Under the pieces are notes generated by a model. That model ran no database searches. It had not been told where the DNA came from and worked only from the letters and a program-made list of their open reading frames with translations. A stretch of 64,000 bases of DNA. It comes from Roseicella frigidaeris. Its GTDB lineage: Bacteria > Pseudomonadota > Alphaproteobacteria > Acetobacterales > Acetobacteraceae. Shown here one piece after another: positions 29,556-42,912 of this stretch. How positions within the stretch are numbered: position 1 is the first letter of the stretch; every line of letters begins with the position of its first letter. Location: the NCBI RefSeq assembly GCF_003258945.1, contig NZ_QLIX01000011.1, positions 1 to 64,000 of the forward strand. Reading direction: 5' to 3'. The position numbers and the translations under genes are program-made.

Positions 29556-29900
29556 CGATGCGGCGGCGGCTGCACCACGCTCCGCTCACGCCGGTTCGCG
29601 GACCATGGTCCAGCGCGGCATTGGGGCGCGTGAGTCACGCCTTCGGTGAGTCCGCCTTGGCGGACACCCATCTCGAAGCGTGGGCCGAGGAGACACGGGG
29701 CCCGCGCCCGGGGCGGGACTCGCGCGAAAGCGGCGTGCGCCGCGCTCTCGCCGGCGGCGTGCGACCGGGGCCCCGTCGCCAGGCAACGGGACAGGCGGGC
29801 CGGGCGGCGGTATTCGGTGCCGCCCCGCGACGTCGCCGGCACGGTGGCCGCGCTGCGCAAGCACCGGCCGGGGCGCGCCCAACCAGGGAAAGGACACGGC
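29556..29900. other. 345-bp intergenic stretch without recognisable gene
   Basis: I see no convincing coding sequence here: the open frames lack family resemblance. It contains short GC palindromes (for example GGACCATGGTCC near 29600) and an AGGGAAAGGA ribosome-binding site just before the next ATG. It presumably carries the promoter of the DUF3140 gene, but no clear -35/-10 pair stands out. Confidence 0.4.
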
Positions 29901-31253
29901 ATGGATGACCAGGAGGCCACGATCGCGGACGCCTTCCGCACGCTGGTGAACATGCGCGCCGATGCGCTGCGCGCCTGGCTCGAGACCGAGGACAGCCGCG
30001 ATGTCGGCTGGACGCATCCGGGCGATTCGGAGGCGGTCGGGCATCAGTCGGGCCGGCGGATCCTCGAGATCCTCGAGCGCGGCGATCCCGCCGAGGCGGA
30101 TGAGGCGTTCCTGCACGAGGTGGTGGGCTATATCCGCCGCCACCTGGCGCAGCGCCCCGAGGGCGATGTCAGCGAGACGCGCTGGCGCTATTCGCTGATG
30201 AACTGGGGACACGACCCGTTGCGGGGCAGCGAGGCGGATGCGGATCGCAACGCCGGCGCGGATGACCGGCAGACAGAGGAGGACCACGCCATGCAGGACG
30301 AGAGCCAGGAGATCACCCCGGTCGAGGAGCCGGCCGCCGAGGAGGCGCCGCGTCGCCGCCGCACCGCCACCCGCAGCCGCCGCGCCGCCGCCACGGCCGA
30401 GGGCGATGTCGCCGAGGGCACGGACGCGCCGCGCCGCGGCCGCCGCCGCGCCGCGCCGGCCACGGAGGCCGACGAGGCCACGCCGACCCGGCGGCCGCGC
30501 CGCGCCGCCGCCGCCAAGCCCGCGCCCAAGCGCGGCGCCGCCGGCCGGACGGCTGCTGCCGCGAAGGGCGGCCGCGCCTCGTCCCGTGGCACCGGCGCCA
30601 AGCGCGCGACGGCGGACCGGGCCACCGGCACCGCGCGCAAGACGACCCGCAGCGCCGCGGGCAAGACCGCCGCGACCCGCGGCACCGCGAAGCGCGCGAC
30701 GGGCACGGCTGCCAAGCGCAGCGCGTCGGGCGCGACCGCCAAGCGCACGCCGGCACGCCGCGCCACGGGCACGGCCAGCAAGCGCGCCACCGGCACCACG
30801 GCCAAGCGTGGCGCCACCCGCAGCACGGCGACGAAGCGCGCGACCGGCAGCACCGCGACGCGCGCCACGGGCACGAAGCGTGCGACGGGCACGGCGGCCA
30901 AGCGCGCGACCGGCAGCACGGCGAAGCGCACCACCGGCACGGCCGCAAAGCGCGCCACCGGTGCGACCGCGAAGCGCGCCTCCGGCACGGCGGCCAAGCG
31001 CACGACCGGCGGCACGGCGAAGCGTGCCACGGGCACGGCGACGAAGCGCGCCACCGGCGGCACGGCGAAGCGCGCCACGGGCACGGCGACGAAGCGCACC
31101 GCCGGCGCGACCGCCAAGCGCGCCACCGGCGCGACTGCCAAGCGCGCCACCGGCGCGACCAGCAAGCGCGGCGCGGCCGGTCGCACCGCCGCGGCGGCCA
31201 AGGGCGGCCGGGCCGGGGGCAGCCGGCGCGGCAGCAGCCGCAGTCGTACCTAG
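29901..31253 (+). CDS. DUF3140 domain fused to a histone-H1-like basic repeat tail
   Basis: The protein has 450 aa. Residues about 5-108 are a DUF3140 domain: WLETEDSRDVGW, GHQSGRRILEIL, VGYIRRHLAQRPEGDVSE, then WRYSLMNWGHDPL. After an acidic linker, residues 150-450 are almost only A, K, R, T, G and S. From residue 326 to 422 a KRATG-type unit repeats every 8 residues. Two identical modules (KRGAAGRTAAAAKGGRA at 210 and 422) bracket the array. H1-like bacterial tails bind DNA non-specifically. The start at 29901 has GGGAAAGGA upstream. A second ATG at 30291 (residue 131) has a perfect AGAGGAGG 8 nt before it, so the tail may also be made alone. The TAG stop is inside a dispersed palindrome. 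Confidence 0.8.
   Translation: MDDQEATIADAFRTLVNMRADALRAWLETEDSRDVGWTHPGDSEAVGHQSGRRILEILERGDPAEADEAFLHEVVGYIRRHLAQRPEGDVSETRWRYSLMNWGHDPLRGSEADADRNAGADDRQTEEDHAMQDESQEITPVEEPAAEEAPRRRRTATRSRRAAATAEGDVAEGTDAPRRGRRRAAPATEADEATPTRRPRRAAAAKPAPKRGAAGRTAAAAKGGRASSRGTGAKRATADRATGTARKTTRSAAGKTAATRGTAKRATGTAAKRSASGATAKRTPARRATGTASKRATGTTAKRGATRSTATKRATGSTATRATGTKRATGTAAKRATGSTAKRTTGTAAKRATGATAKRASGTAAKRTTGGTAKRATGTATKRATGGTAKRATGTATKRTAGATAKRATGATAKRATGATSKRGAAGRTAAAAKGGRAGGSRRGSSRSRT
30873..31160 (+). repeat. 24-bp coding tandem repeat (octapeptide KRATG array)
   Basis: Codons 325-420 of the DUF3140/H1-like gene form 12 consecutive eight-residue units with K-R at the same phase and ATG, TTG, ASG or TAG after it. 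The protein pattern is kept although third codon positions vary, which argues for selection on the protein. Confidence 0.85.
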
Positions 31254-33457: not shown

Positions 33458-35053
33458 ATGAACGCCCCGCTTGCCTCCCCTGCACTGAAGCCGAACCGCC
33501 CCCGCATCGCCGTCATCGGCGCCGGCCCGGGCGGCCTCGCCGCCGCGCTCCTCCTCGCCGCCCAGGGCGCGCAGGTCACCATCTTCGAGCGGGATGCAGT
33601 GGTCGGTGGCCGCACCCGCACCCTGGCGACGCCCGAGGGCTACCGCTTCGACCTCGGGCCGACCTTCTTCCTCTATCCCCGCGTCATCGCCGAGATCTTC
33701 GAGAGCGTCGGCGCCCGGCTGGAGGAGGAGGTGCGGCTGATGCGGGTCGATCCGCTCTACCGCCTGGTCTTCGAGGGCGCGGGCCGCATCGACGCCTCGG
33801 CCGATCCGGCGCGGATGGAGGCCGAGATCGCCCGGCTCTGCCCCGAGGATGCCGCCGGCTTCCGGCCCTTCCTCGCCGAGAACCGCGCCAAGCTCGCCGC
33901 CTTCCGCCCGGCGCTCGAGAACCCCTTCGATTCGGTCTTCCGCTTCCTGCACCCCGACATGGTGCGGGCGCTGCCGCTGCTCCGGCCGCACAGCACGGTG
34001 GACCGCGACCTGGCGCGGCATTTCCGGCATCCGCTGGTGCGGCTCGCCTTCTCCTTCCAGACCAAGTACCTGGGGATGAGCCCGTTCCGCTGCCCCAGCC
34101 TCTTCACCATCCTGAGCTTCCTCGAATACGAGCACGGCATCTGGCACATCGAGGGCGGCTGCGGCGGCATCTCGGAGGCGATGGCGCGCGTCGCGGAGCG
34201 GCTCGGCGTCGAGCTCCGCCTCGGCACGCCGGTCGAGCGCATCGCCTTCGAGGGGAGGCGCGCCCGCGGCGTCGAGGCCGGCGGCCGGCTGCATCCGGCC
34301 GATGCGGTCGTCGTCAACGCCGATTTCGCGCATGCCATGCCGGGGCTGGTGCCGGAGGCGCTGCGGCCGCGCTGGGACGACCGCAAGATCGCCGGCGCCC
34401 GCTATTCCTGCTCCACCTTCATGCTCTATCTCGGCATCGAGGGCGAGCTGCCCGAGCTCGCGCATCACACGGTGCTGCTCTCCGAGGGCTATGCCCGGAA
34501 CATCCGCCAGCTCGAGACCGGCATCCTGCCGGACGAGCCGAGCTTCTACCTGCACAATCCGAGCCTGCTCGACCGCAGCATGGCGCCGCCGGGCCACTCC
34601 GCCCTCTACCTGCTGGTGCCGGTGCCGAACCTGCGCGACGCCCGGCAGCAGGGCGGGCTCGACTGGGCGCGGGAGGCGCCGCGCTTCCGCCGGCTGGTGC
34701 TCGACCGGCTGGCCGCGCTCGGCCTCGGCGCGATCGAGCCGCGCATCCGCGCCGAGCGGATGGTGACGCCGCAGGACTGGCAGGGCCGCTACGCCGTCGG
34801 CCATGGCGCCACCTTCAACCTCAGCCACGACCTGGGGCAGATGCTCTGCTTCCGGCCGCAGAACCGCTTCGCCGGGGCGGAGGGCGTCTACCTGGTCGGC
34901 GGCGGCACGCATCCCGGCAGCGGCCTGCCGGTGATCTACGAGGGCGCGCGCATCACCGCGCGGCTGCTGGCGCAGGATCTCGGCCTGCGGCGGGACAACA
35001 CCAGGCCGCAGCCGCAGGGCGGCCTGGCGCCGGCCCTGCAGGCGAGCCCGTGA
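33458..35053 (+). CDS. crtN: CrtN-type C30 carotenoid desaturase (FAD oxidoreductase)
   Basis: This CrtI/CrtN-family flavoprotein has 531 aa. The dinucleotide motif is AVIGAGPGGLAAALLLA, then VVGGRTRTL and GYRFDLGPTFFLYP. The C-terminal FAD motif is YLVGGGTHPGSGLPVIYEGA. Such enzymes introduce successive double bases (double bonds) in C30 or C40 polyenes at the membrane. With HpnC/D/E encoded downstream, squalene or a derivative is the likely substrate. Which of the two paralogues desaturates and which oxidises the end methyl groups cannot be read directly. It heads a tight operon. Confidence 0.85.
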   Translation: MNAPLASPALKPNRPRIAVIGAGPGGLAAALLLAAQGAQVTIFERDAVVGGRTRTLATPEGYRFDLGPTFFLYPRVIAEIFESVGARLEEEVRLMRVDPLYRLVFEGAGRIDASADPARMEAEIARLCPEDAAGFRPFLAENRAKLAAFRPALENPFDSVFRFLHPDMVRALPLLRPHSTVDRDLARHFRHPLVRLAFSFQTKYLGMSPFRCPSLFTILSFLEYEHGIWHIEGGCGGISEAMARVAERLGVELRLGTPVERIAFEGRRARGVEAGGRLHPADAVVVNADFAHAMPGLVPEALRPRWDDRKIAGARYSCSTFMLYLGIEGELPELAHHTVLLSEGYARNIRQLETGILPDEPSFYLHNPSLLDRSMAPPGHSALYLLVPVPNLRDARQQGGLDWAREAPRFRRLVLDRLAALGLGAIEPRIRAERMVTPQDWQGRYAVGHGATFNLSHDLGQMLCFRPQNRFAGAEGVYLVGGGTHPGSGLPVIYEGARITARLLAQDLGLRRDNTRPQPQGGLAPALQASP

Positions 35054-35084
35054 GCGCGCCGCGGCGGAAGGAAGGGGGAGGGCC

Positions 35085-36686
35085 ATGACCTCGCATGTGG
35101 TGGTGGTGGGCGGCGGACTCGGCGGTCTCGCCGCGGCGGCGACGGCGGCGGCGCGCGGCCACCGGGTGACGCTGCTCGACAAGAATCCCTGGCTCGGCGG
35201 CAAGGCGGCGGAGCTGCGGCTGCTCGATCCCGGGCAGCCCGGCGGCAATGCCGGCTTCCGCTTCGACATGGGCCCGACCATCCTCACCCTGCCGCGCGTG
35301 CTGCGCCGCATCTATGCCGAGGCCGGGCGCGACCAGGCGCGGGATCTGCCGCTGATCCGGCTCGACCCGCAATGGCGCTGCTTCTTCGCCGACGGCACGC
35401 GCATCGACCTCTGCGAGGATGTCGAGGCGATGGCGCGGGCGATGGACGCCTTCGCGCCCGGTACCGGCCAGGGCGAGGGCTATCGCCGCTTCCAGCAGGT
35501 GGCGGAGACGCTGCACACCATCTCGGAGAAGTTCTTCTTCTGGAAGTCGGTCGAGGGCATCGGCGACACCATCGACCTGCGCGCCAATTTCGACCCCTCG
35601 ACCATGCGCGACGTGCTGGCGCTGCGTATGGGCCGGACGGTGGCGAAGGTGATCCGCGGCCATGTGCCGGATGCGCGGCTGGCGCAGATGCTCGACCATT
35701 TCTGCCAGTATGTCGGCTCCAGCCCCTATCTCGCCCCGGCGGTGCTCTGCTCCATCGGCGACATGCAGGCGAGCGAGGGCGTCTGGTACCCGGTCGGCGG
35801 CACCCGCGCCGTCGCCCTCGGCCTGGCGGAGCTTGCGGCCGGGCTCGGCGCCGATCTCCGCACCGGGGTGGAAGTGAGCGGGTTCGAGATCGAGGCGGGC
35901 GCCGTCCGGGCGGTGCGCACCGCGGCGGGCGAGCGCATCGCCTGCGACGCCGTCATCTCCAACATGGACGCCATCCGCACCTATGCCGAGCTGGTCGGCG
36001 GCGAGGCCGGCCGCCGCTACACCCGCAAGGGCTACGAACCCGCCTGCTCGGGCGTCGTGCTCTATCTCGGCCTCAACCGCCGCTACGAGCACCTGGCGCA
36101 TCACTGCTTCGTCTTCTCCCGCGACGCCGAGGCGGAGTTCGACGCCATCTACCGCCGCGGCGAGCCGGCGCCCGACCCGACCGCCTATCTCGCGGCGCCC
36201 TCGGCCACCGACCCGGAGGTGGCGCCGGAGGGCGGCGAGGCGCTCTACGTGCTGGTCCACACCCCCTGGCTCCGGCCGCATCACGATTGGTCGCGGATGT
36301 TCCCCGCCTACCGGCAGGTGATCCTCGACAAGCTCAAGCGCTGCGCCGGCATGGAGGATATCGAGGAGCGCATCGTGGTGGAGCGGGCGCTGACGCCGGT
36401 CGATATCCACGAGCGCTACAAGGTGCTGGACGGCGCCATCTACGGCCTCGCCAGCCACGGCCGCTGGACCGGCGCCTTCAAGCCGGGCAACCGCTCGAAA
36501 TCGGTGCGCGGCCTCTACCTCGCCGGCGGCGCGGCGCATCCCGGCCCGGGCATGCCGATGGTGATGATGAGCGGCTGGATCGCCGCCGATGCGCTGGACC
36601 AGGATCTCGGCGGCCGCGGCATGGGCGAGGCGGCGGCGGAGGCGGGGCTGCGCGACGCCCACCGCGCCCGCCTCGCCGCCGAGTAG
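35085..36686 (+). CDS. CrtP/CrtN-like carotenoid oxidase or desaturase
   Basis: This second CrtI-family protein has 533 aa. It starts VVVVGGGLGGLAAAATAA, followed by WLGGKAAEL and FRFDMGPTILTLPRV; the C-terminal signature is LYLAGGAAHPGPGMPMVMMS. It is clearly paralogous to the preceding gene but only distantly so. In staphyloxanthin-type pathways CrtP, a CrtN relative, oxidises a terminal methyl group to an aldehyde. An aldehyde dehydrogenase in the same operon makes that role likely. It follows crtN after 31 nt with a GGAAGGGGGAGGG ribosome-binding site. Confidence 0.82.
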   Translation: MTSHVVVVGGGLGGLAAAATAAARGHRVTLLDKNPWLGGKAAELRLLDPGQPGGNAGFRFDMGPTILTLPRVLRRIYAEAGRDQARDLPLIRLDPQWRCFFADGTRIDLCEDVEAMARAMDAFAPGTGQGEGYRRFQQVAETLHTISEKFFFWKSVEGIGDTIDLRANFDPSTMRDVLALRMGRTVAKVIRGHVPDARLAQMLDHFCQYVGSSPYLAPAVLCSIGDMQASEGVWYPVGGTRAVALGLAELAAGLGADLRTGVEVSGFEIEAGAVRAVRTAAGERIACDAVISNMDAIRTYAELVGGEAGRRYTRKGYEPACSGVVLYLGLNRRYEHLAHHCFVFSRDAEAEFDAIYRRGEPAPDPTAYLAAPSATDPEVAPEGGEALYVLVHTPWLRPHHDWSRMFPAYRQVILDKLKRCAGMEDIEERIVVERALTPVDIHERYKVLDGAIYGLASHGRWTGAFKPGNRSKSVRGLYLAGGAAHPGPGMPMVMMSGWIAADALDQDLGGRGMGEAAAEAGLRDAHRARLAAE

Positions 36687-36690
36687 GGCC

Positions 36691-37524
36691 ATGCCGCCGG
36701 GGGAGGCCTCGCCGGTCGCGCTCTACTCGCCGGCGCGGCTCGCCTTCTTCCACTTCATCTTCGCCCGCTTCGCCCGGCGCCACCTGCGGGCGGTGCGCCT
36801 CGCCCGCTGGGGCGCGCCGCCGCCGGAGGATCGCGGCCGCCCGCTCGTCGTCTATGCCAACCATCCCTCCTGGTGGGACGGCGTCGCCTTCATGCTCTAC
36901 GCCACGGCGCTGTTTCCCGGCCGGCGCATGTTCATCCCGATGGAGGCGGCGGCGCTGGCGCGCTACCGCTTCATGCGCCGCCTCGGCGTCTTCGGGGTGG
37001 AGCGGGACTCGCCGCGCGACGCCGTCGCCTTCCTGCGCACCGCCGGCGCGGTGCTGGCCGCGCCCTCGCACATGCTCTGGATGAACGCCCCCGGCCGCTT
37101 CATGGATGTGCGCGAGCGGCCGGTGCCGATGGCGCCGGGCCTGGTCCGCCTCGCCGAGCTGGCGCCGCGGGCGCGCTTCCTGCCGCTCGCCCTCGAATAC
37201 CCCTTCTGGTCGGAGCGGGCGCCGGAGATGCTGGCCGGCTTCGGCCCGCCGCTCGAGGGCGCGGCGCTGGCGGCCCTGCCGCGCGGCGCGCGCGCCGCCG
37301 CCCTGGCCGGGGCGCTGGAGGCGGCGATGGACCGGCTGGCCGGCGATGCCATGGCCCGCGACCCGGCGCGCTTCCGTCCGCTGCTGCGGGGGCGGGCGGG
37401 CATGGGCGGCCTCTACCAGCACTGGCGGCACCTGCGGGCGCTGCTGCGCGGCGAGCGCTTCGACCCGCAGCACGACCCCCAGCACGACCCGCACCACGAC
37501 CCCGTGGCGGGGGAGAGCCGATGA
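36691..37524 (+). CDS. PlsC-like acyltransferase
   Basis: This 277-aa lysophospholipid-acyltransferase-family protein has the catalytic HX4D box in VVYANHPSWWDGVAF and a later FLPLALEYPFW acceptor-site strand. One amphipathic membrane-contacting N-terminal helix is visible. In a carotenoid operon with a glycosyltransferase it probably acylates the sugar of a glycosyl carotenoid, the role played by the unrelated CrtO in staphyloxanthin synthesis; this is inference. The C-terminus has a small His-rich DPQH repeat. It overlaps the next gene by 4 nt (ATGA). Confidence 0.82.
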   Translation: MPPGEASPVALYSPARLAFFHFIFARFARRHLRAVRLARWGAPPPEDRGRPLVVYANHPSWWDGVAFMLYATALFPGRRMFIPMEAAALARYRFMRRLGVFGVERDSPRDAVAFLRTAGAVLAAPSHMLWMNAPGRFMDVRERPVPMAPGLVRLAELAPRARFLPLALEYPFWSERAPEMLAGFGPPLEGAALAALPRGARAAALAGALEAAMDRLAGDAMARDPARFRPLLRGRAGMGGLYQHWRHLRALLRGERFDPQHDPQHDPHHDPVAGESR

Positions 37525-38618
37525 CCGACTGGGCCTGGATCAGCCTCGGCCTCGCCGCCCTGCCGGCGGCGCTCGGCGCCCACAATCTCCGGCGCCTCCC
37601 CCGCCTGCCCGCGGCGGCGGCGCCGGGGCTGGTCTCCATCCTGATCCCCGCCCGCGACGAGGCCGCCAATATCGCGGCCTGCCTCGACGCGGCGCTGGCC
37701 AGCCAGGGCGTCGCCATCGAGGTGGTGGTGATGGATGACGGCTCGACCGACGGCACGCCGGAGATCGTCCGCCGCCGCGCCGCCGCCGATCCGCGCCTGC
37801 GCCTGCTCGCCGCGCCGCCGCTGCCGCCGGGCTGGACCGGCAAGGTGCATGCCTGCGCCCGGCTGGCCGAGGCGGCGCGCGGGGACTGGATGCTCTTCCT
37901 CGATGCCGATGTCCGCCTGGCGCCGGAGGCGGCGGCGGCGATGGCGGCGCATGCCGCCCGCCAGGGCCTCGCCATGGCGAGCGCCGTGCCGCGGCAGGTG
38001 ATCGGCTCGCTCGGCGAGGCGCTGACCGTGCCGGCGATCAATTTCCTCCTGCTCGGCTATCTCCCCGGCGGCGGCCGGGCGGAGACCCGGCAGCCCGGCC
38101 TGGCCGCCGCCTGCGGCCAGCTCCTGCTCTGCGAGCGCGGCGCCTATGCCGCGATCGGCGGCCATGGCGCGGTGCGCGGCGTGCTGCACGAAGGGCTGGC
38201 CCTGGCCCGCCGCTTCCGCGCCGCCGGGCACCGGACGGAGGTGGTGGACGGCGCCCCGCTCGCCGAATGCCGCATGTATCGCGGCTTCGCCGAATGCTGG
38301 GCCGGATTCCTGAAGAATGCCCGGGAGGGGATGGCGACCCCGCTCGGCCTGCCGGTCTGGACGGCGATGCTGGGCGGCGCGCATCTCTGGCCCTGGGCGC
38401 TGCTGCCGGCCTGGCCGGCGGCGCTCGCCCTGCTGCTCGGGCTGGGGCTGCGGATCGCCGTCACCCGGCGGGCGCGGGAGCCCTGGTGGACCGTGCCGCT
38501 GCACCCCGCGACCATGCTGGTGGCCCTGGCGATCCAGTACTGGGCGCTCATCCGCTGGCTGGCGGGGCGGCCGGCGGGCTGGAAAGGCCGGGCATATCCC
38601 GCCACAAAGGCGGCATGA
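37521..38618 (+). CDS. Family 2 glycosyltransferase (CrtQ-like)
   Basis: This membrane-bound GT2 protein has 365 aa. An N-terminal hydrophobic helix precedes the catalytic domain, with LVSILIPARDEAANIAACL, the nucleotide-sugar site VVVMDDGSTDGTPE and DADVRL. The C-terminal part has two or three membrane helices. The arrangement resembles CrtQ, which glucosylates 4,4'-diaponeurosporenoate. Start and stop overlap both neighbours as ATGA, a sign of strict translational coupling with the acyltransferase and the squalene synthase fusion. Confidence 0.85.
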   Translation: MTDWAWISLGLAALPAALGAHNLRRLPRLPAAAAPGLVSILIPARDEAANIAACLDAALASQGVAIEVVVMDDGSTDGTPEIVRRRAAADPRLRLLAAPPLPPGWTGKVHACARLAEAARGDWMLFLDADVRLAPEAAAAMAAHAARQGLAMASAVPRQVIGSLGEALTVPAINFLLLGYLPGGGRAETRQPGLAAACGQLLLCERGAYAAIGGHGAVRGVLHEGLALARRFRAAGHRTEVVDGAPLAECRMYRGFAECWAGFLKNAREGMATPLGLPVWTAMLGGAHLWPWALLPAWPAALALLLGLGLRIAVTRRAREPWWTVPLHPATMLVALAIQYWALIRWLAGRPAGWKGRAYPATKAA

Positions 38619-40288
38619 ACGCCCCCGTTCCACCGACCCCGCCAGGGGGAGCGAGCCTGGCCGTCTCGGCGGCGCCGACCCGCGACCATGACGAGGAGAA
38701 TTTTCCCACCGCCTCGCGGCTGCTCGCCCGGCCGGTGCGGGCCCAGGTCATGGCCTTCTACCGCTTCGTCCGGGTGGCCGACGATATCGGCGACAGCCCC
38801 GACCTCGCGCCCGAGGAGAAGCTGCGCCGCCTGGATGCGATGGAGCTTGCGCTCGACGACCCGGGCACCGCGCTGCCCGAGGCCGCCGCGCTGCACCGCA
38901 CCGGCACCGGCGTGGAGGAGGCGCGGCGCATGCTCTCCGCCTTCCGCCAGGATGCGGTGAAGCGGCGCTACGCGGATTGGGAGGAGCTGGTCGATTATTG
39001 CCGCCGCTCGGCCGATCCGGTCGGGCGGATGCTGCTGCGGCTGCATGGCGATGGCGGCAACGCCCCGGCCGAGGCAGCCGCCGATGCGCTCTGCACCGCG
39101 CTGCAGGTCCTGAACCACCTGCAGGACCTGGTGCCGGACCGCCGCAGCCTCGATCGCATCTACCTGCCGCAATCCTGGATGGCGCTCGCCGGCGGCGAGG
39201 AGGCCTTCTTCGACCCGGCCAATGCGGCGCGGCGGCGCGCGGTGTTGGACGCCGCGCTCGACCGGGTGGAGGAGCAGCTCGACCGCGCCGCCATCCTGCC
39301 GCGGCTGCTGCGCGCGCGCCGCCTCGCCCTCCAGAGCGGCATGACCATCCGCTGCGCCCGCCGGCTGCTGGCGCGGCTGCGGCGCGGCGACCCGGTCGCG
39401 GGCCGCATCGCCCTCTCGAAGGCGGATTTCGCCGGGGCGCTGGCCGGAGCCCTGCGCGGCGGCCCGCGCGATGCGGCGGTGGTCGCCGGCCGCGTCTCCC
39501 GCGCCGGCTCCTCCTTCGCCCGCGGCATGGCGGCGCTGCGCGGCGAGCGGCGGCGCGCCCTCTGGGCCGTCTACGCCTTCTGCCGGGCGGTGGACGACAT
39601 CGCCGACGGCGCCATGCCGGAGGCGGAGAAGCGCCGCTTCCTGGCGGATTGGCGGGGCAAGCTGCAGCGGCCGGACTGCATCCTCTCGCGCGAGCTGGCC
39701 TGGGCGCGCGCCGCCTATGGCGTGCCGCTCGCCGAATGCGAGGCGATGATCGCCGGCATGGAGACCGACAGCACCGAGCGGCTGCGGCTGGCGACCGAGG
39801 CCGAGCTCGACCTCTATTGCCGCCGCGTCGCCGGCAGCGTCGGGGCGATGAGCGTGCGCATCTTCGGCGCGCCGGAGGCCGAGGGCTTCGGCCTCGATCT
39901 CGGCCACACCTTCCAGCTCACCAACATCCTGCGCGACGTGGACGAGGATGCGCTGCGCGAGCGCGTCTACGTCCCGCGCGACCTGCTGGCGGCCGAGGGC
40001 ATCCCGGAGGGGCCGGCGCGGGAGATCGTCGCGCATCCCCGCTTCGCCGCCATCTGCGCCCGGCTCGGCGAGCGGGCCGAGGCCGGCTTCGCCCGCGCCC
40101 GGCGGGAGATCGCCCGCTTCGACCGCCAGGCGCTGCTGCCGGCGGCGGTGATGATGTGGGGCTATGGCCGGCTGCTGGACCGCATGCGGGCGCGCGGCTG
40201 GGCCGGCGAGAGGCCGCGGCCGCGCCTCGGCACGGGCGAGAAGCTGCGCATGGCCTGGATGGCGCTCGGCTTCGGGCGGGCGGCATGA
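38615..40288 (+). CDS. hpnC-hpnD: HpnC-HpnD fusion: bifunctional squalene-pathway synthase
   Basis: One open frame of 557 aa encodes two squalene/phytoene-synthase-type domains. Residues about 22-285 match HpnC (hydroxysqualene synthase): ENFPTASRLL, first Asp-rich box DDIGD (56-60), YADWEELVDYCRRSADPVGR, and second box LNHLQDLVPD. Residues about 292-545 match HpnD (presqualene diphosphate synthase): GSSFARGMAALRGERR, DDIAD (327-331), and TNILRDVDEDALRERVYVP. HpnD condenses two farnesyl diphosphates and HpnC turns the product into hydroxysqualene. No stop codon or frame change separates them, and the domain join (39465-39490) is short. These are normally separate genes. hpnE follows. Confidence 0.93.
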   Translation: MNAPVPPTPPGGASLAVSAAPTRDHDEENFPTASRLLARPVRAQVMAFYRFVRVADDIGDSPDLAPEEKLRRLDAMELALDDPGTALPEAAALHRTGTGVEEARRMLSAFRQDAVKRRYADWEELVDYCRRSADPVGRMLLRLHGDGGNAPAEAAADALCTALQVLNHLQDLVPDRRSLDRIYLPQSWMALAGGEEAFFDPANAARRRAVLDAALDRVEEQLDRAAILPRLLRARRLALQSGMTIRCARRLLARLRRGDPVAGRIALSKADFAGALAGALRGGPRDAAVVAGRVSRAGSSFARGMAALRGERRRALWAVYAFCRAVDDIADGAMPEAEKRRFLADWRGKLQRPDCILSRELAWARAAYGVPLAECEAMIAGMETDSTERLRLATEAELDLYCRRVAGSVGAMSVRIFGAPEAEGFGLDLGHTFQLTNILRDVDEDALRERVYVPRDLLAAEGIPEGPAREIVAHPRFAAICARLGERAEAGFARARREIARFDRQALLPAAVMMWGYGRLLDRMRARGWAGERPRPRLGTGEKLRMAWMALGFGRAA

Positions 40289-40325
40289 CGGCGGCCCTGT
40301 CCGCCGGGACGCCCGCCGCCGCGCC

Positions 40326-41558
40326 ATGACCATCCATGTGATCGGCGCCGGCGTCGCGGGCCTCGCCGCGGCGCTGGCGCTGGCCGAGGCCGGCCGTTCG
40401 GTCGCCCTGCACGAGGCGGCGCCGGTCGCCGGCGGCCGCTGCCGCGCCCTGCCGGATGGCAGCGACAACGGCACCCATGCGCTGCTCGGCGCCAACCAGG
40501 CGGCGCTCGGCTTCCTCGCCCGCATCGGCGCGCGGGAGGGCTGGGTGGAGCCGGAGCCGGCGGGGCTGCCGGTGCTCGACCTGCGCGACGGCCGCGCCTT
40601 CCGCGTCGCCCTCTCGCCGCTCGCCTGGGGCAACCCGGCGCTGCGCCCGCCCGGCCTCTCCGCCGGGGCGCTGCTGGCGCTGGCCCGCCTCGCCCTGCCG
40701 GGGCGGGACCGGGCGGTCGGGCCGGCCATGGCGGCCCATCCGGAATTCCATCGCGGCTTCGTCGATCCCCTGGTCATCGCGGCGCTGAACACGCCGAGCG
40801 GGGAGGCCTCGGCGCGCCGGCTCGGCGCCGTGCTGCGCCGCCTCGGCGGGCGGGGGGCGACGCGGCTGCTGGTGGCGCGCGCGGGGCTGGGGCCGGACCT
40901 GGTGGCGCCGGCGCTGGCGGCGCTCGCCCGCCGCGGCGCGACCATCCGCTTCGGCGCCCGGCTGCGCCGGCTGGAGAGCGCCGGCGGCCGGGTGGTGGGG
41001 CTCGATTTCGGCGAGGACGCCGTCGCCCTCGGCCCGGGGGAGGCGGCGGTGCTGGCGACGCCGCCCTGGGAATCGCAGCGCCTGCTGCCGCATCTCGAGA
41101 CGCCGGCGGCGCATGCGCCGATCGTCAACCTGCATTTCGCCCATCCCAATCCGGGCCCGGTGCGCTTCCTCGGCCTGCTGGAGGCGCTCTGCCAATGGGT
41201 GCTGGTGCGGCCGGCGGGCGTCAGCGTCACGGTCAGCGCCGGCGACGCGGCGGTGCGCGAGGAGGCGGCGACGCTCGGCCCGCGCGCCTGGGCCGAGCTG
41301 CGCCGGGCGGCGCTCGCCTTCGGCCTGGCCGGCGACTGGCCGGAGGCGCCGCCGCCCTGCCGGGTGGTGAAGGAGCGCCGGGCGACGCCGCGCCACACCC
41401 CCGGCCCGGCGCTGCGCCCGCCGCGCCTGCCGCTCGGCAACCTCGCCTTGGCCGGCGACTGGACCGATCCGCTGCTGCCGGCGACCATCGAGGCGGCGAC
41501 CCGCAGCGGCGAGGCGGCGGCGCGGGCGCTGCTGGCGGCGGGCCAGGGCGATGGCTGA
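40326..41558 (+). CDS. hpnE: Hydroxysqualene dehydroxylase HpnE
   Basis: This FAD-dependent amine-oxidase-family protein has 410 aa. It reduces hydroxysqualene to squalene, the third step after HpnD and HpnC. The FAD motif is IHVIGAGVAGLAAALALAEAG, followed by VAGGRCRAL. The HpnE-typical DNGTHALLGANQAALGFL and C-terminal LALAGDWTDPLLPATIEAATRSG are present. It follows the HpnC-HpnD fusion by 37 nt and overlaps the aldehyde dehydrogenase by 8 nt. No squalene-hopene cyclase gene is near. Confidence 0.93.
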   Translation: MTIHVIGAGVAGLAAALALAEAGRSVALHEAAPVAGGRCRALPDGSDNGTHALLGANQAALGFLARIGAREGWVEPEPAGLPVLDLRDGRAFRVALSPLAWGNPALRPPGLSAGALLALARLALPGRDRAVGPAMAAHPEFHRGFVDPLVIAALNTPSGEASARRLGAVLRRLGGRGATRLLVARAGLGPDLVAPALAALARRGATIRFGARLRRLESAGGRVVGLDFGEDAVALGPGEAAVLATPPWESQRLLPHLETPAAHAPIVNLHFAHPNPGPVRFLGLLEALCQWVLVRPAGVSVTVSAGDAAVREEAATLGPRAWAELRRAALAFGLAGDWPEAPPPCRVVKERRATPRHTPGPALRPPRLPLGNLALAGDWTDPLLPATIEAATRSGEAAARALLAAGQGDG

Positions 41559-42912
41559 TCCGGCCGGGGAGGGGGACCCCGCCGCCGCGCTGGCGGCCCT
41601 GCGGGCGGCCGAGGCGCGGGACGGGGCGTTGCCCCTGGCGCGCCGGCAGGCGCTGCTGCGCGTCCTGGCGGCGCTGCTGCTGCGCCGCGCCGAGGCCGTG
41701 GCGGAGGCCGTCGATGCCGATTTCGGCGGCCGCTCCACCGAGGAGACGCTGCTCGCCGAGGTGAAGCTGGTGGTCGATGCCGCCCGCCACGCCGCGGCGC
41801 GGCTGCCGCGCTGGGCCCGGCCGCGCCGGGCCGGCGTGCCCTTGCCCTTCTGGCCCGCCCGCGCCCGGGTCGAGCCGGTGCCGAAGGGCGTCGTCGGCAT
41901 CATGGCGCCCTGGAACTACCCGGTGCAGCTCGCCCTCTGGCCGGCGGTCGATGCCTTCGCCGCCGGCAACCGGGTGGCGATCAAGCCCTCCGAGGCGGCG
42001 CCGCGGACCGCCGCGCTGCTCGCCGCGCTGCTCGCCGAGGCCTGGGGCGGGGAGATCGTTCAGGTGGTGCAGGGCGGGCCGGCGGTGGCGGCGGCCTTCG
42101 CGGCGCAGCCCTGGGACCATCTGGTCTTCACCGGCGGCACCGAGACGGGCCGGCGGGTGATGCGGGCGGCGGCCGAGGCCCTGGTGCCGCTGACCCTGGA
42201 GCTGGGCGGCAAATGCCCGGCCCTGGTGCTGCCCGGCGCCGATCTCGCCCTGGCGGCGCGCGCCATCCTGGCCGGCAAGCAGGTGAATGCCGGGCAGACC
42301 TGCATCGCCCCGGACACCGTCCTGCTCGTCGGCCACGCGGCCGCCGATTTCATCGCCGCCTGCCGGGCGAGCGGCCTCGGCGCGGCCGAGACGGCGCTGG
42401 TGAACGACCGCCAGGCGGCGCGCCTCGCCGCGCTGCTGGAGGGGGCGGCGCTGGTGCCGCTGGCGCCGGACGGGCCGGGCCGGCGGCGCGGCCTCGCCCT
42501 GGCCGAGGCGCCGCCCGGGCATCCGCTGCACCGGGAGGAGATCTTCGGCCCGGCGCTCGCCTTGCAGCCCGTGCCGGACTTGGCCGCCGGCATCGCCTGG
42601 ATTGCCGCCCGGCCGCGGCCGCTCGCCATCTACCTCTTCGGCGCCACGCGGGCGGAGGAAGCGGCGGTGGCCGCCGGCACGCGGAGCGGCGCCATCGTCG
42701 CCAACCGCTGCCTGGAATACGCCGCCTTCCCCGACCTGCCCTTCGGCGGCAGCGGCGCCTCCGGCTTCGGCCGGCGCAACGGCGAGGCGGGGTTCCGCGA
42801 GTTCAGCCTGCTGCGCAGCCGCGTCGCGCATGGGCGCTGGAGCCTGGCGCGGCTGCTCGACCCGCCGCGCGGCGCGCGGGCGCGCCGGCTGGTGCGCCAG
42901 GTCCTGCGCTGA
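41551..42912 (+). CDS. Aldehyde dehydrogenase (carotenoid aldehyde type, inferred)
   Basis: This NAD(P)-dependent enzyme has 453 aa and resembles coniferyl-aldehyde-dehydrogenase-like/ALDH3 members. Conserved parts are VGIMAPWNYPVQLALWP, FTGGTETGRRVM, the base Glu in LTLELGGKCP and the nucleophile Cys in NAGQTCIAPD. In C30 pathways an aldehyde dehydrogenase makes the diapocarotenoic acid that is then glycosylated; operon position supports that role. The C-terminal tail (ARLLDPPRGARARRLVRQVL) is basic and may touch the membrane. The gene ends at a hairpin, so it is probably the last of the core operon. Confidence 0.88.
   Translation: MADPAGEGDPAAALAALRAAEARDGALPLARRQALLRVLAALLLRRAEAVAEAVDADFGGRSTEETLLAEVKLVVDAARHAAARLPRWARPRRAGVPLPFWPARARVEPVPKGVVGIMAPWNYPVQLALWPAVDAFAAGNRVAIKPSEAAPRTAALLAALLAEAWGGEIVQVVQGGPAVAAAFAAQPWDHLVFTGGTETGRRVMRAAAEALVPLTLELGGKCPALVLPGADLALAARAILAGKQVNAGQTCIAPDTVLLVGHAAADFIAACRASGLGAAETALVNDRQAARLAALLEGAALVPLAPDGPGRRRGLALAEAPPGHPLHREEIFGPALALQPVPDLAAGIAWIAARPRPLAIYLFGATRAEEAAVAAGTRSGAIVANRCLEYAAFPDLPFGGSGASGFGRRNGEAGFREFSLLRSRVAHGRWSLARLLDPPRGARARRLVRQVLR

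Follow-up and report, generated by a model that had tools for sequence, protein, structure and literature searches.

Does a single gene in Roseicella frigidaeris encode two consecutive enzymes of squalene synthesis, and if so, which pathway does its product serve? The question is raised by a stretch of 64,000 nucleotides (positions 1 to 64,000 of contig NZ_QLIX01000011.1, assembly GCF_003258945.1; hereafter the window). A sequence-only reading of this DNA had proposed that HpnC and HpnD are joined in a single frame of 557 amino acids at 38615–40288, with no stop and no start signal between the two domains and with hpnE following. We find that the fusion is genuine and not an assembly error. 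Also, its surroundings, on which that reading was silent, form a probable C30-carotenoid cassette. The 557-amino-acid protein is very probably a bifunctional HpnCD whose product is turned into squalene by HpnE; the squalene would feed both C30-carotenoid enzymes and squalene-hopene cyclase (Shc), and such fusions would have originated repeatedly.

The proposed coordinates are right. The forward strand at 38615–40288 carries a 557-amino-acid frame that is open throughout, with the HpnC part first and the HpnD part second. Both parts belong to their NCBIfam families: the first scores 328.1 bits against TIGR03464 (HpnC, hydroxysqualene synthase; equivalog cut-off 250.45, E-value 4e-98) and the second scores 314.3 bits against TIGR03465 (HpnD, presqualene diphosphate synthase; equivalog cut-off 278.6, E-value 5e-94). 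With such E-values, neither match is due to chance. A Pfam search gives two SQS_PSY stretches in the protein, and the gap between the domains is 13 residues by NCBIfam and by purpose-built domain models alike. As the frame contains no stop, read-through or slippage is not needed to make one chain, and both are ruled out as routes to it. The frame is also open upstream of the ATG at 38615, as far as an ATG at 38267, but the extra part lies inside the glycosyltransferase gene (37518–38618). The start at 38615 overlaps the stop codon of that gene by 4 nt, and the same overlap is found in an annotated relative from Microvirga. (The fused gene is also spanned by a stop-free antisense frame of 1114 amino acids, on the minus strand at 38144–41488. 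Long antisense frames occur in several relatives too, and this one is probably a shadow of high G+C codon usage.)

The single frame is shared by relatives. Both domains lie in one stop-free frame in 79 of 80 named genome loci (two of which, L098 and L112, come from one metagenome-assembled genome by title), and the remaining locus, L130, is cut by a contig end. Forty of the named loci were aligned to the window protein and are 60–94% identical to it, the closest being Roseicella sp. DB1501 at 94%. The sequence flanking the join is conserved among the fused relatives as well. A search of 299 genomes of the family gave at least 62 rows (R. frigidaeris included) that span both domains at 61–100% identity. 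Five of these were flagged "1 TGA" (L051, L054, L141, L142, and L143); we read all five, and they are open across both domains. For the other 57, the stop-free status is that of the search output alone ("none" for internal stops). G141 and G146 were covered only in part and, among the matches listed, G005, G032, and G142 (38–44% identity) are other fusions. Seven further two-domain matches were flagged for stops, and the six that we read (G452, G468, G515, G243, G872, and G679; the seventh is G549) are all separate genes in one frame. For example, in G243 (45% identity), a TAG stands between hpnC and hpnD. A search for single-chain HpnC-HpnD proteins, as the sequence-only reading had advised, finds fused hpnCD in several alphaproteobacterial families.

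Could one frame still give two polypeptides, either by an internal start near residue 289 or 305 or by cleavage at the join that frees HpnD? We consider this improbable. It had been claimed that the join holds no start signal, which is correct in that no ribosome-binding-like site was found there, but two start-type codons do lie in frame, a GTG at 39479 (residue 289) and an ATG at 39527 (residue 305). The ATG of M305 is the only start codon that is fixed across all 89 aligned fused rows (84 different genes). Furthermore, 57 of the 80 main-clade rows have some ATG, GTG, or TTG within reference residues 280–300, and the confidence of a structural model (below) dips at residues 291–310. However, M305 lies behind the conserved SSF motif of HpnD, so that a start there would delete the motif. 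The GTG codons near the join are scattered across several alignment columns, and GTG is rarer among the Val codons of the main-clade rows in this region (65 of 176 in residues 280–300) than elsewhere (1108 of 1999). A Shine-Dalgarno-like 4-mer lies upstream of these start-type codons in just one row, and a second, separate HpnD was not found in the genome. We infer that the product is one uncleaved polypeptide.

It is less likely still that one domain is degenerate and that the other is a single-enzyme squalene synthase or a CrtM-like dehydrosqualene synthase. Structure searches do match CrtM-like proteins and phytoene synthase; also, the cassette looks carotenoid-making, and CrtM routes exist in such settings. 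Against this, the catalytic aspartates are kept in both domains, as the sequence-only reading had noted. The boxes of the HpnC domain are DDIGD (residues 56–60) and QDLVPD (residues 170–175), which follow the patterns DDxxD and QDxxxD, and those of the HpnD domain are DDIAD (residues 327–331) and RDVDED (residues 440–445). Their aspartates are invariant in the 89 fused rows, except for D443 (85 of 89). The glycine of DDIGD, which had been singled out as an oddity, is ordinary variation: it is present in 15 of the 89 fused rows, and of 27 separate HpnC rows (from the tree set described below) two have it as well. As it recurs in both kinds of relatives, we rejected the idea that it is a lesion, and it is no argument against function. 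Also, both domains beat their equivalog cut-offs, whereas the single-enzyme squalene synthase model (TIGR01559) gives 36.2 bits against a cut-off of 286.75, which places the protein outside that family, and a gene for HpnE lies alongside in 77 of the 80 loci. We therefore predict both activities for the protein. Finally, a sequencing or assembly indel that erased a stop between two normal genes, a danger raised by the sequence-only reading itself, is barely conceivable even though separate hpnC and hpnD overlap by 4 nt so often (20 of 38 rows) that one indel could make or break a fusion: it is refuted by the relatives, with their single frame in 79 of 80 loci, their alignment at 60–94% identity, and their conserved join.

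We also modeled the protein with AlphaFold2, using an alignment of the window protein and 40 relatives (41 close sequences). The mean predicted local distance difference test score (pLDDT) was 90.8 and the predicted template modeling score (pTM) was 0.89. With two domains, a pTM of this size suggests that they are held in a defined position relative to each other, as seen from close relatives only. The sequence-only reading had supposed that a fusion would channel presqualene diphosphate between the active sites, and a confident single-chain fold is compatible with this idea. The 50 best Foldseek matches listed are all single-domain enzymes and show no sign of a channel; the best of them are CrtM-like, CrtM, and HpnC (4hd1) structures. 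By sequence, the best solved relative is again 4hd1, which matches the HpnC domain.

What, then, is the fused gene for? It is the fifth gene of a same-strand run at 33458–42912 (Table 1). As had been noted, hpnE follows it, so the route from farnesyl diphosphate (FPP) to squalene probably takes two proteins. Around these genes is the gene set of a squalene-route C30-carotenoid cluster: two CrtI-family genes, a glycosyltransferase, an acyltransferase, and an aldehyde dehydrogenase, along with the source of squalene. We read the run as a probable C30-carotenoid cassette, with a predicted carotenoid product, because of the gene order and genetics of Azospirillum brasilense Sp7 and the pathway of M. 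extorquens AM1. In A. brasilense Sp7, two crtI genes, the acyltransferase, and the glycosyltransferase occur in the same order, and the aldehyde dehydrogenase gene adjoins them on the opposite strand (identities in Table 1). According to the sections of PMC13274349 used here, deleting either hpnCDE or crtNPOQ abolishes carotenoids in this strain, and the crtNPOQ deletion accumulates squalene. (The A. brasilense plasmid ABSP7_p1 carries an unfused hpnC and hpnD that share a frame and are divided by a TAG; these may or may not be the pair deleted in PMC13274349.) According to the portions of PMC10448405 consulted, HpnCDE squalene is the starting point of a C30 carotenoid with glucosyl and acyl groups in M. 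extorquens AM1.

Which of the two CrtI-family genes would be crtN and which crtP is assigned from gene order. The acyltransferase-type gene had no match in NCBIfam, and the CruG/HpnB-like matches of the glycosyltransferase were below the cut-offs. Among the 80 named loci, neighbors of the fused gene include HpnE (77), the glycosyltransferase (74), the acyltransferase (72), the crtP-like gene (71), and the aldehyde dehydrogenase (58); several of the misses are short contigs. The crtN-like query also matches 71 of the 80 loci, but with under 35% identity in L088, L089, L097, and L103, which are probably cross-matches to the other CrtI gene. A relative of the crtP-like gene (59%; hit H51) is found on a plasmid of Gluconobacter thailandicus. 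Elsewhere in the window, an open reading frame at 29646–31253 has a long repetitive tail rich in Lys, Ala, Thr, and Arg (KRATGT-type repeats).

Table 1. The fused gene, its parts, and the candidate cassette genes around it (positions in the window).
Feature	Position	Strand	Evidence
Fused hpnCD	38615..40288	+	ATG 38615, stop 40286-40288, 557 aa; single frame in 79/80 named loci
HpnC domain, residues 24-280	38684..39454	+	NCBIfam TIGR03464, 328.1 bits
Join between NCBIfam stretches, 13 residues (281-293)	39455..39493	+	No conserved start codon
HpnD domain, residues 294-550	39494..40264	+	NCBIfam TIGR03465, 314.3 bits
CrtI-family desaturase, crtN-like candidate	33458..35053	+	TIGR02734, 494.5 bits; 59% to A. 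brasilense AMK58_RS25220
CrtI-family oxidase/desaturase, crtP-like candidate	35085..36686	+	TIGR02734, 390.7 bits; 67% to A. brasilense AMK58_RS25215
Lysophospholipid-acyltransferase-type gene, candidate carotenoid acyltransferase	36670..37524	+	48% to A. brasilense AMK58_RS25210 (lysophospholipid acyltransferase family)
Glycosyltransferase family 2, candidate carotenoid glycosyltransferase	37518..38618	+	PF00535, 77.1 bits; 54% to A. brasilense AMK58_RS25205
hpnE, hydroxysqualene dehydroxylase	40326..41558	+	TIGR03467, 256.6 bits, best match HpnE; in 77/80 named loci
Aldehyde dehydrogenase, aldH candidate	41551..42912	+	PF00171, 226.7 bits; 38% to A. brasilense AMK58_RS25225; in 58/80 named loci

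A related question is how this gene relates to hopanoid synthesis. We found no other HpnC or HpnD in the genome, which is 98.5% complete. Apart from hpnCD, SQS/PSY matches occur only on contig C7, in a gene beside a crtI, and on contig C21, in a distant member. The C7 gene best fits phytoene synthase (385.5 bits, below the cut-off of 500), and this region (88909–92688 of C7, locus L001) holds a second CrtI gene that adjoins it. So, the same genome may be able to make both C30 and C40 carotenoids. The squalene-hopene cyclase gene (shc) is on contig C34 and hpnCD is on contig C3, which reaches at least 38 kb to either side of the fused gene; thus, shc does not adjoin hpnC or hpnD as it does in a hopanoid operon.

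The same separation is seen in other genomes. We sampled ten genomes of the main fused clade (G000–G004, G007, G009, G019, G025, and G031), in which some contigs are short. Eight of them have shc, always on a different contig from hpnCD, and none has a second HpnC/HpnD pair. The other two, G009 and G031 (L221 and L222), have fused hpnCD and hpnE but no shc match, so in these genomes hpnC and hpnD are no sign of hopanoids. In contrast, among 22 sampled genomes of the family with separate hpnC and hpnD, 21 have shc, which in 19 of them shares a contig with hpnC or hpnD. (In G006 and G018, shc is elsewhere, and hpnC and hpnD are on contigs of under 6 kb.) In G005 and G032, which have other fusions, shc lies within about 2 kb.

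To see where the fusion comes from, we built a main tree from 53 concatenated HpnC+HpnD rows, 26 fused and 27 separate. The rows were chosen by hand: 9 of the 80 named loci are in the trees, picked for spread, and loci with only one domain by our own models were excluded. We count L216 as fused even though the contig breaks off within its HpnD part. Rows with long branches or repeated genes were dropped beforehand (L225, L245, L226, L244, L224, L217, L218, L219, L220, L227, L132, L147, L246, L237, L228, and L034). As four of these, L217–L220 (families f133 and f33), are also fused, the count of origins is incomplete. L218–L220 (family f33) are a very divergent HpnC-HpnD fusion on a long branch, with about 155–165 bits per domain by our own models; L218 has just 11 residues between its domains.

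The 53-row tree requires 7 changes from one state (fused, separate) to the other, and starred branches force 6 of them. An earlier tree that included the dropped rows (62 rows, 56 of them different and 31 fused) needs 9 changes, with 6 forced, and quick single-domain trees of the 53 rows need 7 changes each, with 4 and 5 forced. As the tree is unrooted, these changes do not separate gain from loss; that a fused gene would split again to give an ATGA overlap is presumably less likely. A single clade of all 26 fused rows is rejected by the approximately unbiased (AU) test (p = 0.00026). We also considered that the main-clade fusions of Acetobacteraceae derive from the family's own hopanoid genes, but the AU test rejects their union with the hopanoid-type rows (p = 3.8e-60, to be read as a clear rejection only). 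Each of these two groupings was chosen for testing with the tree already known, a practice against which the program cautions.

The clade of the window protein comprises the Acetobacteraceae fusions, a plasmid-borne fusion of Microvirga ossetica, and family f15 (support 100/98). Two members of f15 have a crtP-like gene (44–49%) and an aldehyde dehydrogenase near the fusion. Next to this clade are the separate hpnC and hpnD of carotenoid cassettes on plasmids of Palleronia and Limimaricola (90/79, not starred). Large plasmids of M. ossetica, Palleronia sp., and Limimaricola variabilis (L247, L249, and L252), from three different families, all carry carotenoid cassettes; hpnCD is fused in one and separate in two. 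Fused and separate rows also adjoin each other elsewhere in the tree: f51 lies next to A. brasilense, G498 next to G666 (L216 and L243), and, more weakly, G005 next to G243 (90/72). Overall, the sequences suggest that fusions arose several times and that the lineage in the window is associated with the carotenoid cassette and not with the hopanoid operon of the family. Separate hpnC and hpnD overlap by 4 nt (ATGA or GTGA) in 20 of 38 rows, or in 17 of 33 if five repeated pairs are counted once; ten of the 38 (one a repeat) are in the same frame, and three are far apart. Given how common these overlaps and same-frame pairs are, a fusion is one small indel or one lost stop away.

We propose that the C-terminal HpnD domain would convert two FPP to presqualene diphosphate, which the N-terminal HpnC domain would convert to hydroxysqualene. 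HpnE, from the next gene, would reduce this to squalene, for use by the surrounding C30-carotenoid enzymes (the two CrtI-family proteins, the aldehyde dehydrogenase, the glycosyltransferase, and the acyltransferase). As our search of the genome gave no further HpnC or HpnD, squalene would also go to the squalene-hopene cyclase encoded on the other contig. Both the carotenoid product and the use of squalene by two pathways are predictions from gene content. Fusions such as this one could have arisen several times, either from operons whose hpnC and hpnD share 4 nt (ATGA or GTGA) or from pairs in one frame with a stop between them.

Several observations weigh against this proposal. Its support comes from sequence, gene neighbors, and phylogeny, and both the activities and the form of the protein are predicted. 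The pLDDT falls below 50 at residues 24–32, and blocks within residues 291–310 are at 81 and 75. That the join has no ribosome-binding-like site carries little weight, as hpnE in the window also lacks one. HpnE itself is below its curated cut-off (283.05 bits), and in L136 (Roseomonas sp. E05) nothing that lies between hpnCD and the aldehyde dehydrogenase matches HpnE; this strain may use another reductase for the last step or have hpnE elsewhere. The fused gene has no crt, acyltransferase, or glycosyltransferase neighbors in the DNA fetched for L092, L104, L122, L127, L131, and L133, nor in G009, which also has no shc match. Thus, the tie between hpnCD and the cassette is strong but not strict. 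In the f15 members G621 and G542, the fused gene lies near shc, without crt matches. Finally, in a draft genome, finding shc on another contig gives no measured distance.

A broader scenario seems to us about evenly balanced between right and wrong. The HpnCD fusion would have formed in the cassette lineage and spread with it, on plasmids too, and it would have displaced the hopanoid hpnC and hpnD in Roseomonas-type Acetobacteraceae, so that shc would now stand by itself in another part of the genome. The fused enzyme would then stand at the branch point between carotenoids and hopanoids, and the repeated fusion would reflect selection for holding the enzymes together, whether for a fixed 1:1 ratio or for the transfer of presqualene diphosphate. 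If hopanoid-operon genes were displaced by the copy in the cassette, then hpnC and hpnD are a poor sign of hopanoids. HpnD and HpnC catalyze consecutive steps, and their natural union in one chain lends itself to the question of whether presqualene diphosphate passes straight from one to the other; repeated fusions with close separate relatives provide a natural comparison. The natural chain could also be useful for engineering squalene or C30 carotenoids.

How does this fusion compare to known systems? We found no report, in the open-licence literature, that places the fusion in Acetobacteraceae or within a carotenoid cassette, and nothing there on C30 carotenoids with Acetobacteraceae or diapolycopene with Roseomonas. 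The portions of PMC10152446, PMC13274349, PMC10745290, PMC7839719, PMC9062700, and PMC9686282 covered here do not mention a natural HpnC-HpnD fusion. The sequence-only reading had described these consecutive enzymes as separate genes in characterized bacteria, but the fusion is not unprecedented: fused hpnCD has been in print since 2017. As described in the parts of PMC5462960 that we drew on, a study of Acidobacteria found it in the majority of its subdivision 2 genomes, and its BLAST searches added Actinopolyspora, Blastococcus saxobsidens, and Rhodospirillum centenum. As in the window, hpnC and hpnD are one gene of about double length, with the HpnC part first, and the gene in the window fits that description (HpnC then HpnD in one frame without a stop). 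However, the acidobacterial fusions are among hopanoid genes instead of in a probable C30-carotenoid cassette. (The comparison is by gene description; our tree comprises other rows.) The HpnC-HpnD fusion is thus not new in kind, and what is new is its carotenoid setting; its separate lineage and its repeated occurrence are also of note.

Hopanoid operons, such as those of a Roseomonas marmotae plasmid and Sinorhizobium fredii NGR234, encode the same enzymes in the same order (HpnC, HpnD, HpnE), but their hpnC and hpnD are separate, with a 4-nt overlap, lie beside shc, and do not group with the window protein in the tree. The plasmids of Palleronia sp. LCG004 and L. variabilis resemble the window more closely in that they carry two crtI genes, the acyltransferase, the glycosyltransferase, the aldehyde dehydrogenase, hpnC, hpnD, and hpnE. 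Their hpnC and hpnD, which are the nearest separate relatives in the tree, are unlike the window in being separate with a 4-nt overlap, and the Palleronia pair is just under the cut-offs (245 versus 250 for HpnC and 267 versus 279 for HpnD). The M. ossetica plasmid encodes a 552-amino-acid fusion (WP_162299269.1; HpnC 345 bits, HpnD 336 bits) after the same crtI, acyltransferase, and glycosyltransferase genes. This plasmid is from another order, and it differs in having ispH after hpnE, a methyltransferase between the crtI genes, and the aldehyde dehydrogenase upstream on the opposite strand.

In M. extorquens AM1, as is predicted for the window, HpnCDE squalene passes to CrtN, CrtP, a glycosyltransferase, and an acyltransferase, but hpnC, hpnD, and hpnE are separate and clustered with shc, and the carotenoid genes are elsewhere (PMC10448405, same portions). 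The available text of a review (PMC6439483) gives the reaction order as HpnD, HpnC, HpnE, as does that of PMC10152446. The review also describes an engineered CrtE-HpnD fusion in Rhodopseudomonas palustris TIE-1 that raised squalene from 9.9 to 12.6 mg/g. There too, HpnD is tied to a neighboring enzyme of the pathway, but artificially, through a (GGGGS)3 linker, and its partner serves the step that supplies FPP and is not HpnC.

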